Source: Ruegeria sp. YS9
GTDB taxonomy: Bacteria > Pseudomonadota > Alphaproteobacteria > Rhodobacterales > Rhodobacteraceae
Direction: 5' to 3'
Length of the DNA: 64,000 nt
Assembly (NCBI RefSeq): GCF_024628725.1
Contig: NZ_CP102409.1
Coordinates: 2,079,001 to 2,143,000 of the forward strand
The notes under the pieces were generated by a model. It saw nothing but the letters and a program-made list of their open reading frames with translations. It did no database searches and had not been told where the DNA came from. The translations under genes were made by a program, and so were the position numbers. Positions 46,763-58,687 of the stretch are shown here, piece after piece (the first letter of the stretch is position 1; each line of letters begins with the position of its first letter).

Positions 46763-46816
46763 GACGACTGTCCCTTTCGCTTGCGCCCCACTTGAAATTC
46801 GCGTTCCCCCCGGATG

Positions 46817-46857
46817 AAAAACGGCGGGTTGATCTGCTGCCACTGATCAACCCGCCG
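46817..46857 (-). terminator. Intrinsic terminator upstream of mraZ
   Basis: Perfect 13-bp arms (cggcgggttgatc at 46822-46834 and its complement at 46845-46857) around a 10-nt loop. Read leftward they are followed directly by five T residues. The terminator points into mraZ and lies about 55 bp before its start, so it must end a leader transcript. Confidence 0.85.
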
Positions 46858-47022
46858 CATTGACCCGCTGTGCGGGATGTCCAGCTGCACGCGCCACCTG
46901 GGGGGATGTCTGCTCGCCCGCGCGCCGGATCTCTTGATTGATGAAAGCGAGATGCCTGTATGAAACCTGATTATTTTTGGTCGGGGTCGTTTGGTGCCCC
47001 TGCTGCCTCGTCCTCATCGGAT
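46817..47022 (-). ncRNA. UpsM-like sRNA / long dcw leader
   Basis: In Rhodobacter sphaeroides the dcw cluster has a long 5' leader whose first part is released as the sRNA UpsM (about 206 nt) by termination at a strong intrinsic terminator just before mraZ; the rest reads through into the operon. Here the same layout is visible: no gene for several hundred bp upstream of mraZ, and a near-ideal terminator 55 bp before its start. The 5' end given is only an estimate from the R. sphaeroides length. A cctaat hexamer at 47030-47025 (minus) could be a -10 box, but no matching -35 is clear. Confidence 0.6.
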
Positions 47023-47027
47023 GCATT

Positions 47028-47063
47028 AGGGATGCCATGGGAATTCATGGAAATCAACAGGAA
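47028..47063. promoter_or_regulatory. Candidate MraZ-type operator (repeats every 10 nt)
   Basis: On the plus strand aggga (47028), tggga (47038) and tggaa (47048) recur with exact 10-nt period, and aggaa at 47059 follows one base out of phase. MraZ of E. coli binds TGGGN repeats with 5-nt spacers. The cluster lies where the promoter of the leader would be. The match is partial and the strand is opposite to dcw transcription. Confidence 0.3.
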
Positions 47064-47331: not shown

Positions 47332-47532
47332 GCCCATGAAGTCCCGTGGCATTCGGGCAGTACACTCCGCGACCTGCGAGACCGGCAAATCGTGCACCAG
47401 GGAATAGCTGAACCGCCGCGCCTTGCCTGGCGCTTCGGTCACACGCACGTCTTGAGTGGTTTTGTTGCGCACAAATTCCAGCCAACACCGCTCAATTAAA
47501 AGGCAAGCCGTCGGAAGGCCATGTTTCCGCCG
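47332..47532 (-). other. Possible short coding remnant
   Basis: An open minus-strand frame of 67 codons between an in-frame TGA (47535-47533) and a TAA (47331-47329). Codon use looks coding-like (RNKTTQDVRVTEAPGKARRF, then SYSLVHDLPVSQVAE), but there is no ATG. A GTG at about residue 21 would give a 46-residue product with a weak ribosome site. It could be the end of a decayed gene. I cannot name a family. Confidence 0.25.
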
Positions 47533-47643
47533 TCACCCGTGACCCAAGGGAAGGCCCAATGATTCAAGGCGCATTTCGAGTTGAAGGAAAAAACTGAACC
47601 AATCTATGCGCTTGCTGCATAGCAGCATTGACGATGCGACCTA

Positions 47644-47676
47644 TTGTGCAATCGCAGCATTTGCCTATTTTCAACC
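47644..47676 (+). promoter_or_regulatory. Candidate RpoH-type promoter of the DUF1127-cuckoo RNA transcript
   Basis: ttgtgc (47644-47649) and cctattt (47664-47670) are separated by 14 nt, compatible with the alphaproteobacterial RpoH pattern. In R. sphaeroides the equivalent operon is driven by RpoHI/RpoHII. The match is modest. Confidence 0.35.
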
Positions 47677-47728
47677 TCAAGCAAGGGCCGAGCGTTATCG
47701 GCAAAGCAAATGAATACGGATGATGAGC

Positions 47729-47953
47729 ATGGCAGTCGCAAGCACATATACAGCCTCGAAGAGCGCATCGGCGTTCGGGATCGCAACTTTGATCGAAAAC
47801 GCAAAGGCGCGTTTTGCCCGCTATCGTATGTATCGCCAGACCGTCAATGAGCTGGCAGGGCTGTCGGACCGTGAACTGGCCGATCTGGGCCTGCATCGGT
47901 CCATGATCCGTCGGGTGGCCATGCAGGCCGCCAACGATCACATCGCGCAATAA
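47729..47953 (+). CDS. Small DUF1127 protein (CcaF1-like)
   Basis: 74 residues from the third of three nearby ATGs (47720, 47723, 47729); MAVASTYTA is the common Roseobacter beginning. The C-terminal half is a DUF1127 domain: YRQTVNELAGLSDRELADLG then LHRSMIRRVAMQA, preceded by a basic segment KARFARYRMYR. In R. sphaeroides the DUF1127 protein CcaF1 is an RNA-binding protein encoded just upstream of, and co-transcribed with, the CcsR RNAs, and affects their maturation. Here the same neighbours follow directly, so the same role is inferred. Confidence 0.88.
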   Translation: MAVASTYTASKSASAFGIATLIENAKARFARYRMYRQTVNELAGLSDRELADLGLHRSMIRRVAMQAANDHIAQ

Positions 47954-47971
47954 GCGCGCCACGAATACCGA

Positions 47972-48046
47972 GATCAGGCCCTTCCTCCTCCCTTAGGGTC
48001 TGTTATCAGCGGCAACGTCTCTCCTCCTCCCTGACGTTGCCGCACC
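47972..48046 (+). ncRNA. Cuckoo (CcsR-like) sRNA 1
   Basis: Two hairpins with a short linker. The first has an 8-bp stem (47975-47982 with 47995-48002, one G-U pair) and a 12-nt loop holding CCUCCUCCC at 47984-47992. The second has a perfect 11-bp stem (48009-48019 with 48033-48043) and a 13-nt loop with CCUCCUCCC at 48023-48031. The design, two stem-loops each exposing CCUCCUCCC, defines the cuckoo/CcsR RNA family of alphaproteobacteria. It begins about 20 nt after the DUF1127 stop, so it is probably processed from that mRNA. Confidence 0.85.
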
Positions 48047-48077
48047 TTATACCGGCCTCAACCCGCCGGATCCTGAT

Positions 48078-48157
48078 ACATCGAGGCTCTCCTCCTCCCT
48101 GCCTTGATGTTGAAAGCGCGCGGCGACGTCCTCCTCCTCCCTGACGTCGCCGCGTCT
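48078..48157 (+). ncRNA. Cuckoo (CcsR-like) sRNA 2
   Basis: First hairpin: stem 48078-48087 with 48101-48110 (one G-U), 13-nt loop, CCUCCUCCC at 48091-48099. Second hairpin: stem 48118-48130 with 48143-48155 (one G-U at the base), 12-nt loop, CCUCCUCCC at 48133-48141. It is separated from RNA 1 by about 34 nt that can form a small ccggc/gccgg hairpin. The stem sequences resemble RNA 3 (first hairpin) and RNA 1 (second hairpin), which shows tandem duplication. Confidence 0.87.
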
Positions 48158-48189
48158 TCCTCATACCGGGTTCAAACCCGGGTTCGAAT

Positions 48190-48272
48190 ACATCGGGGCT
48201 CTCCTCCTCCCTGCTCTGATGTTGACAAGACGGCGGTTCCCCTTCCTCCTCCCTGGGAACCGCCGTTTTTTT
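48190..48272 (+). ncRNA. Cuckoo (CcsR-like) sRNA 3 with terminator
   Basis: First hairpin: stem 48190-48199 with 48213-48222 (two G-U pairs), 13-nt loop, CCUCCUCCC at 48203-48211. Second hairpin: stem near 48232-48241 with 48254-48264 (ggcggttccc against gggaaccgcc), loop with cctcctccc, followed by seven T residues, so this hairpin is also the operon terminator. The spacer before it (48166-48181) forms a ccgggt/acccgg hairpin. Confidence 0.87.
48231..48272 (+). terminator. Intrinsic terminator of the DUF1127-cuckoo RNA operon
   Basis: The GC-rich stem (acggcggttccc / gggaaccgccgt) runs straight into a T7 tract at 48266-48272. It closes the transcript that carries the DUF1127 gene and the three RNAs. 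Confidence 0.85.
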
Positions 48273-48319: not shown

Positions 48320-48610
48320 ATAGCCGCCTGTTTCATCGCGCAGATCGACACCCACGACCCGGATGGGTAACAGGATGATCCGGCGGGTTTGATGCGGAAC
48401 TTCGACCGCCACAAGGGCCGACTGCTCACGGTCTCATCGAAACCGGTCGAACGGATCGAAGGCGATTGGCCCAAAGGTGGCATTGTGCTGATGGAGCTTA
48501 CGGACCTTGCCACGGCGAAAGCCAGGAAAGACGACCCCGACTACATCGGGCTGGCGAGAATCCGGCAAGCTACCGCCTCGACCAATCTGGTTCTGGTCGA
48601 AGGGATATGA
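48320..48610 (+). pseudogene. DUF1330 gene broken by an in-frame stop
   Basis: One continuous frame reads IAACFIAQIDTHDPDG, then TAA at 48368-48370, then QDDPAGLMRNFDRHKGRLLTV and on to EGDWPKGGIVLMELTD and STNLVLVEGI. Together the two parts give a complete DUF1330 domain (about 96 residues); the stop stands where family members usually have Tyr (DPxxY), so a TAC/TAT to TAA change is likely. The position of the start holds ATA, not ATG, with aagga upstream, suggesting a second lesion. The downstream part alone (from 48389 or 48392) could still be translated. A sequencing error is not excluded. Confidence 0.7.
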
Positions 48611-58504: not shown

Positions 58505-58579
58505 GCGGGCGTAGCTCAGGGGTAGAGCATAACCTTGCCAAGGTTAGGGTCGGGCGTTCGAATCGCCTCGCCCGCTCCA
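58505..58579 (+). tRNA. tRNA-Gly (GCC), copy 1
   Basis: 75 nt with acceptor stem gcgggcg/cgcccgc, D-arm gctcaggggtagagc, anticodon loop ttGCCaa in the stem aacctt/aaggtt, T-arm with gttcgaatc, and an encoded CCA end. The anticodon GCC reads glycine codons GGC and GGU. Confidence 0.97.
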
Positions 58580-58612: not shown

Positions 58613-58687
58613 GCGGGCGTAGCTCAGGGGTAGAGCATAACCTTGCCAAGGTTAGGGTCGGGCGTTCGAATCGCCTCGCCCGCTCCA
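58613..58687 (+). tRNA. tRNA-Gly (GCC), copy 2
   Basis: Identical over all 75 nt to the copy 33 nt upstream, including the CCA end. The tandem copies probably share a transcript. Confidence 0.97.

Follow-up and report, generated by a model that had tools for sequence, protein, structure and literature searches.

The window analysed here, a stretch of 64,000 nucleotides from Ruegeria sp. YS9 (contig NZ_CP102409.1), carries on its plus strand a gene for a CcaF1-like DUF1127 protein of 77 aa (47720-47953; PF06568, 60.4 bits), which could also start at either of two further in-frame ATGs (47723 and 47729), and which is followed, after a gap of 21 nt between its stop codon and the first stem, by a row of six hairpins. 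An ORF starting at 47644 is in a different frame from this gene. The hairpins, which an earlier note on this DNA had described as carrying CCUCCUCCC in their loops, were indeed found at 47975-48269, and they form three two-hairpin units at the positions given in that note. Hairpins A and B of unit 1 lie at 47975-48002 (loop motif at 47984-47992) and 48009-48043 (48023-48031), those of unit 2 at 48078-48110 (48091-48099) and 48119-48154 (48133-48141), and those of unit 3 at 48190-48222 (48203-48211) and 48227-48272 (48245-48253), the last of which has a stem reaching to 48269 and a T-run and constitutes an intrinsic terminator. The units are separated by small hairpins without the aSD motif, at 48052-48069 and 48166-48181, as had also been predicted.

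The region of the array (340 nt) folds at -148.2 kcal/mol as compared to a mean of -96.1 for dinucleotide shuffles (z -12.4; n=100, with none as low), and all six motifs sit in loops. The proposal that two stem types alternate along the row holds roughly, in that hairpin B of unit 1 is 89% like that of unit 2 over 28 nt, and unit 2 is 76% like unit 3 over 78 nt, but hairpins 1 and 6 depart from it with stems of their own. The 9-mer CCTCCTCCC is present in six exact copies on the plus strand, starting at 47984, 48023, 48091, 48133, 48203, and 48245. Genome-wide, counting both strands, there are 13 copies of it vs 12 of the reversed 9-mer, so that the clustering within the array is unusual and the total is not; the other seven sites are solitary within 2-3 kb.

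Family membership and distribution of the array

Judged by its anatomy, the locus corresponds to the ccaF1-CcsR (CIN1, cuckoo RNA) locus of R. sphaeroides. The latter (RSP_6037) is described as having the same order of a DUF1127 gene, tandem aSD-loop RNAs (CcsR1-4), and a terminator (PMC10253847), and differs in that its DUF1127 protein has 71 aa, and in that it has four units, as compared to three in the window. The cuckoo family, as delineated from the descriptions in PMC3927594 and PMC10746234, is recognized by adjacent hairpins with CCUCCUCCC loops and variable stems, all of which are present here, with the stems covarying over 37 genomes. The marks of CIN1 are found as well, namely the small DUF1127 gene that immediately precedes the array in the same orientation and the Rho-independent terminator at the 3' end, formed by hairpin 6 with its T-run; a T-rich stretch follows the last hairpin in the 37 congeners.

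The covariance-model check that the earlier note had called for was borne out in part. The three units match the Rfam CcsR1 model (RF02791) with 51.9, 36.5, and 33.3 bits (E 1.3e-11, 4.6e-7, and 4e-6), and there are three matches to ar14 (RF02344) with 52.8, 49.7, and 19.7 bits (best E 1.4e-8), but all three units miss the gathering cut-off of CcsR1 (65.3), and the ar14 matches miss theirs (58.8). Consistent with that, a search of the 64-kb window at the Rfam gathering threshold returned two tRNAs only, with no match in the array. The PF06568 match, the sub-threshold Rfam matches, and the fold together uphold the reading of the locus as a DUF1127 gene with tandem cuckoo/CcsR RNAs and a terminal T-run hairpin of the R. 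sphaeroides ccaF1-CcsR kind. As such, the array locus is of a known kind and ordinary for its family, and the new part is the conserved two-box promoter. The alpha-r14/NfeR1 RNAs of Rhizobiales (RF02344) also have CCUCCUCCC loops in consecutive hairpins and share a promoter box discussed below, but they differ in being described as a single three-hairpin RNA with an RpoD promoter of its own (PMC10746234). At some Rhizobium loci in the set of named loci introduced below, a DUF1127-like ORF ends ~200 nt upstream of the array.

Among the 61 genomes searched, the exact motif pair was found in 36 of the 37 members of the genus; in the single miss, G033, the locus is present and four of the six loops read UCUCCUCCC. 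When one change of a loop base is allowed, the array is present in all 37 congeners, with six hairpins in 29 of them and eight in the other 8, so that three units are ordinary for the genus and the copy number is not, as had been claimed, specific to this locus. Over the 238 congener hairpins, the motif is exact in 212 and differs in the first base in 24 and in the second in 2, and the spacing within the arrays is steady (37-43 nt from A to B and 63-71 nt from B to A). Across the family, the exact pair occurs in 107 of 149 genomes (106 of 148 genera), and the reversed pair pattern in 22 of the 149, at most four times each; chance may account for some of the single pairs counted in the 107.

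A set of 117 named loci was obtained with a pattern that requires three motifs, so that the minimum of three is by design and the set is no census; it retains the Firmicutes chance matches L059, L099, and L138 (with scores for box 1, described below, of 11, 9, and 9). The largest array per locus has between 3 and 17 motifs among the 117 listed, the 17 being those of Wenxinia marina, the largest among them. MraZ upstream on the opposite strand, as in the window, was matched in 34 of these 117 and a PcrA-type helicase downstream, also as in the window, in 39 (one of them weak, at 29%), the flanks often being short. The nearest among the named loci listed are three from Ruegeria (L041, L118, and L130), with PcrA identities of 91, 87, and 93% and with MraZ identities of 90 and 78% in the two whose records reach MraZ; two of the three have a DUF1330 gene behind the array. 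In the window, a DUF1330 gene (PF07045, 47.6 bits) lies directly 3' of the array at 48389-48610, which was matched in 3 of the 117 named loci listed.

Motif copies that range from 3, a minimum set by design, to 17 among the named loci listed, together with a nearly fixed loop on drifting stems, would also suit an array that acts mainly as a sponge or decoy, be it for Hfq, the DUF1127 protein, or Shine-Dalgarno stretches, in which chosen targets are minor and the repeats provide dosage. The same can be said of the genome G111, where five tandem units (C4:691717-692221) share one identical A-B stretch of 48 nt, pointing to a recent expansion of the array or to gene conversion within it. This explanation is nevertheless considered improbable, as the three redundant aSD loops of NfeR1 reportedly silence defined mRNAs of S. 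meliloti at their ribosome-binding sites (PMC10746234), and flhR mRNA has been described as a target of the CcsR RNAs in R. sphaeroides (PMC8307010).

Stem covariation and spacer hairpins

In the genus, the paired columns of the array stems hold 99-100% standard pairs, with compensatory changes present. With the hairpins divided into six classes (A and B of the first, the second, and the last unit), the double-change cells number 25, 39, 18, 13, 3, and 1, and covariation exceeds all 500 column shuffles in five of the six classes. The terminator hairpin, which is nearly invariant in the genus and for which 3 of the 14 predicted pairs in the alignment take in loop letters, shows covariation that is not above the shuffles (27 of 500 reach its score). 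Column shuffles take no account of relatedness, so the double changes weigh more as evidence. The stems vary yet pair in all congeners, which runs counter to the view that their divergence is specific to the locus.

The spacer stems, CCGGC/GCCGG and CCGGG/CCCGG, are nearly invariant in the genus, where no covariation was seen in them because they do not vary. A broader comparison was made on 101 spacers from 57 of the named loci listed (33 of 134 spacers, which held aSD remnants, having been excluded, and the Firmicutes chance loci L059 and L138 having been kept) and on 94 control segments from upstream of the arrays. The spacers fold with a mean z of -1.69 vs -0.11 for the controls, 41% of them vs 4% of the controls fold at or below the 5% shuffle level, and a stem with at least four G-C pairs is present in 86 of the 101 spacers vs 25 of the 94 control segments. 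The 57 different spacer stems imply that, among the named loci listed, the sequence changes while the hairpin persists. Spacer hairpins are thus enriched in the arrays of other genera, with different stems, and are not a peculiarity of this locus as had been thought; we read them as a part of the repeat unit that probably acts as a processing mark. Spacer 2 (CCGGG-TTCAAA-CCCGG) was also considered as a tRNA T-arm, which was rejected, as the spacer stems and loops differ between genera.

The two-box promoter

The DUF1127 gene is preceded by a conserved block, which has a mean identity of 0.87 at 47625-47684 in 26 congener loci aligned with the window and an identity mostly of at least 0.9 from 47601 on, the preceding line (47505-47564) being at only 0.36. 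Its best-kept parts are two TGC/GCA dyads, TGCATAGCAGCATTG and ATTGTGCA-ATC-GCAGCAT, of which the earlier note makes no mention. The first of them, box 1, is found with a conserved ATGC ahead of it at 47606-47630 on the plus strand (ATGC-N6-TGCATAGCAGCATTG), and the second, box 2, at 47643-47660 on the same strand, where it overlaps a putative -35 TTG (47644-47646). Together with a putative -10 element, CCTATT (47664-47669), the latter would form an RpoH-type core, TTG-N19-TAT, with a predicted transcription start near 47678.

Both boxes resemble binding sites described for LysR regulators of Rhizobiales. The VtlR motif of Brucella is quoted as CAATGCAGCCATGCA (PMC12595884), and box 1 (47616-47630) agrees with its reverse complement in 13 of 15 positions; of 300 shuffled 500-bp stretches, 4 reach 12/15 and none 13. 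All 36 congener arrays compared have a box 1 of at least 12/15 upstream, as do 73 of the 87 named loci listed that remain when 30 of the 117 with a short flank or no three-motif cluster are set aside, vs 0 of 36 and 4 of 87 downstream. Box 2 holds an exact TGCA-N6-GCAT, which is the LsrB box reported upstream of NfeR1 (PMC10746234), and, at 12/14 or better, it is found upstream in 45 and downstream in 0 of the same 87 named loci, with no selection on box 1. The 51 promoters of a further comparison had all been selected on a box 1 score of at least 12, so that box 2 alone counts as independent in it; beyond the genus, conservation of the -10 CCTATT is weak in these 51. The PabcR1 box of S. meliloti, GCAT-N3-TG-N3-T, is placed at -61 to -49 (PMC8844928), and box 1 would also fall at -61 to -49 if positions -12 to -10 are assigned to the TAT at 47666-47668. 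Read as GCAT-AGC-AG-CAT-T, it fails that pattern by one mismatch in seven fixed positions, an A for T which also occurs in many boxes of the named loci listed.

The promoter was also used by itself as a search pattern (CTGCATNGC-N15-25-ATTGTGCANNNGCAGCA), derived from loci first identified through the aSD motif. It matched in 76 of the 149 family genomes, with two matches in no more than two of them and with 0 matches for the reversed control. The exact motif pair is present in 69 of these 76 genomes, vs 38 of the 73 without a promoter match (Fisher p 1.4e-7 from a hand-read table, with kinship ignored), and the exact promoter pattern is absent from 38 of the 107 array genomes. Among the 30 matches read (the first 30 of 78, and not a random choice), all 30 have at least two CTCCTCCC within 700 nt, 26 have a DUF1127-like motif, and 1 repeats exactly a promoter from which the pattern was built. 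Since the loci behind the pattern had been selected by motif, the cleanest part of this test is provided by the four arrays (L217, L225, L229, and L230) that were found by the promoter in genomes missed by the motif-pair search. The pattern is hence precise in finding such arrays but does not find all of them.

Elsewhere in the genome of the window, near matches to box 1 with at most one mismatch were counted at 23 sites, coding or not, vs 2 for the control, and these sites are not taken to be a regulon. No box at 12/15 lies near the seven other CCTCCTCCC sites, except for L166, where it is ~600 bp away. Likewise, none was found near the other DUF1127 matches in the genome (seven, one of them under the cut-off), two 12/15 matches ~900 bp from one of these, L198, being left uncounted.

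At one congener locus, L038 (1414-1560), similar boxes precede an orphan two-hairpin cuckoo RNA, which has no intervening gene, there being only ~30 nt between the promoter boxes and the first motif. Its box 1 (1414-1428) scores 14/15, and its box 2, at 1450, has one change, the two being spaced 36 nt start to start, as compared to 27 in the window. The orphan motif pair was also matched in the congeners G005 and G032, and no pair of this kind was found in the genome of the window. This orphan bears on the idea that the hairpins serve solely as a 3' UTR device for stability or termination of the DUF1127 mRNA and give rise to no free sRNAs, as the position of the row directly behind the ORF and its terminator might suggest. 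A copy with similar boxes so close to its first motif argues against such a role, as do the nearly invariant loops on covarying stems and the processed RNAs known from R. sphaeroides (PMC10253847, PMC8625941), which together make this explanation very improbable.

A candidate LysR regulator and the proposed mechanism

VtlR, the LysR regulator of Brucella, is reported to activate three DUF1127 genes and AbcR2 (PMC12595884), the targets of its Agrobacterium counterpart include abcR1, atu1667, and vrsA (PMC7486931), and those of LsrB in Sinorhizobium include AbcR1 and NfeR1 (PMC10746234, PMC8844928). These targets resemble the locus in the window in being DUF1127 or sRNA genes with a GCAT-N3-TG-N3-T or TGCA-N6-GCAT box, and differ from it in that box 1 of the window has AG for TG. 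The place of VtlR is described as adjacent to trxB (PMC7486931). No VtlR-like LysR gene adjoins trxB in the genome of the window, and a candidate was found by homology instead, using as the query the LysR protein encoded next to trxB in one Rhizobium genome. The best match (G000:C1:1379500-1380360) scored 237.5 bits, with the next best at 129.3, and the return search with this candidate gave the trxB-neighbour LysR of Rhizobium at 236.7 bits, with the next at 139.6, which makes the two reciprocal best matches; the candidate gene lies on the minus strand of L203 (1450-2358). They are 41-42% identical over 290 aa, and 44 of the first 60 residues are alike by hand count.

VtlR/LsrB is described as structurally conserved in many Alphaproteobacteria (PMC7486931), whereas LsrB is elsewhere called unique to Rhizobiales, with only OxyR appearing for R. 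sphaeroides in the tree of that study (PMC11975290). Because these two accounts conflict, the candidate may be a related LysR rather than LsrB proper. In the portions of the literature that were searched, no report of VtlR/LsrB control in Rhodobacterales was found, and there was nothing that connects VtlR, LsrB, or a LysR box to the CcsR/cuckoo RNAs of this order, the latter being a weak negative, since the search ran outside the original CcsR, CcaF1, and cuckoo papers.

RpoH control of the window promoter is plausible on the basis of its TTG-N19-TAT core, which fits the TTG and TAT elements quoted for the RpoHI/HII promoter of rsp_0557; a consensus for RpoH1 of S. meliloti is given in PMC8844928. 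The promoter of R. sphaeroides ccaF1-CcsR is described as RpoHI/RpoHII dependent, these being the only regulators named for it in the text consulted (PMC10253847), and the window differs in adding the two TGC/GCA boxes, the R. sphaeroides sequence being known by description only. That description, the fit of the core to another RpoHI/HII promoter, and the statement that LsrB is unique to Rhizobiales would all agree with a promoter that depends purely on RpoHI/RpoHII, the dyads being bound by some other regulator or merely shaping the DNA. We consider this rather unlikely, as box 1 lies outside the -35/-10 core and yet is among the best-kept positions in the 26 congener loci, which were not selected for it, and as its match to the VtlR motif recurs at 12/15 or better in the 73 of 87 named loci noted above.

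With the anatomy, the stem covariation, the conservation of the spacer hairpins and the promoter, and the presence of a regulator candidate in the genome directly supported, it appears likely that this counterpart of ccaF1-CcsR is expressed as one transcript, from which RNases free aSD RNAs of ~75 nt, and that its promoter combines an RpoH-type core with LysR-bound boxes. The model outlined below, in which we infer for this organism the transcription start, the sigma factor, the RNase processing, the LysR binding, and the targets, would begin at a single promoter, where the RpoH-type core is accompanied by the two TGC/GCA dyads, which would most likely be bound by a VtlR/LsrB-related LysR; the overlap of box 2 with the core promoter could mean repression. 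The resulting transcript would encode the DUF1127 RNA-binding protein, carry the three two-hairpin sRNAs in its 3' part, and end at hairpin 6. An RNase, by analogy the RNase E of R. sphaeroides, would then cut the single-stranded stretches beside the spacer hairpins, releasing the ~75-nt RNAs; maturation of CcsR is reported to involve RNase E and CcaF1 (PMC10253847, PMC8625941). Again by analogy, the aSD loops, with their CUCCUCCC core, would pair with GGAGG-type ribosome-binding sites, following which translation of the target mRNAs would be blocked.

A broader proposal, to which we give slightly less than even weight, is that the cuckoo operons of Rhodobacterales share a dedicated and strongly conserved promoter, in which an RpoH-type core is joined to tandem VtlR/LsrB-like boxes and both inputs are needed, and that the repeat unit consists of two aSD hairpins and a motif-free processing hairpin. 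If true, expression of the sRNAs would require a stress sigma factor and a metabolic or redox LysR regulator to agree, and one old regulator lineage would govern both the AbcR, NfeR1, and DUF1127 genes of Rhizobiales and the CcsR RNAs of Rhodobacterales. The locus opens a testable link between the RpoH-controlled CcsR RNAs of Rhodobacter and the VtlR/LsrB-controlled DUF1127, AbcR, and NfeR1 genes of Rhizobiales, which the literature consulted treats apart.

The surroundings of the locus offer a further point of comparison. The 5' leader of mraZ, on the minus strand at 46785-47050, is conserved at 0.85-0.98 identity per 60-base line (46785-47024, 27 sequences), its end being a 14-bp hairpin with five T behind it; it is probably a homolog of the R. 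sphaeroides sRNA UpsM. We take RS0680a to be CcsR1 and assume that close RSs/RS numbers stand for close places in the genome, on which basis the CIN1 locus of R. sphaeroides probably likewise lies near the dcw cluster, UpsM being RSs0682 and the aSD RNA being RS0680a. The former number is that given for UpsM in PMC5089854, and the latter that of the two-hairpin aSD RNA in PMC3927594. Farther along the window, two identical tRNA genes are found in tandem at 58505-58576 and 58613-58684.
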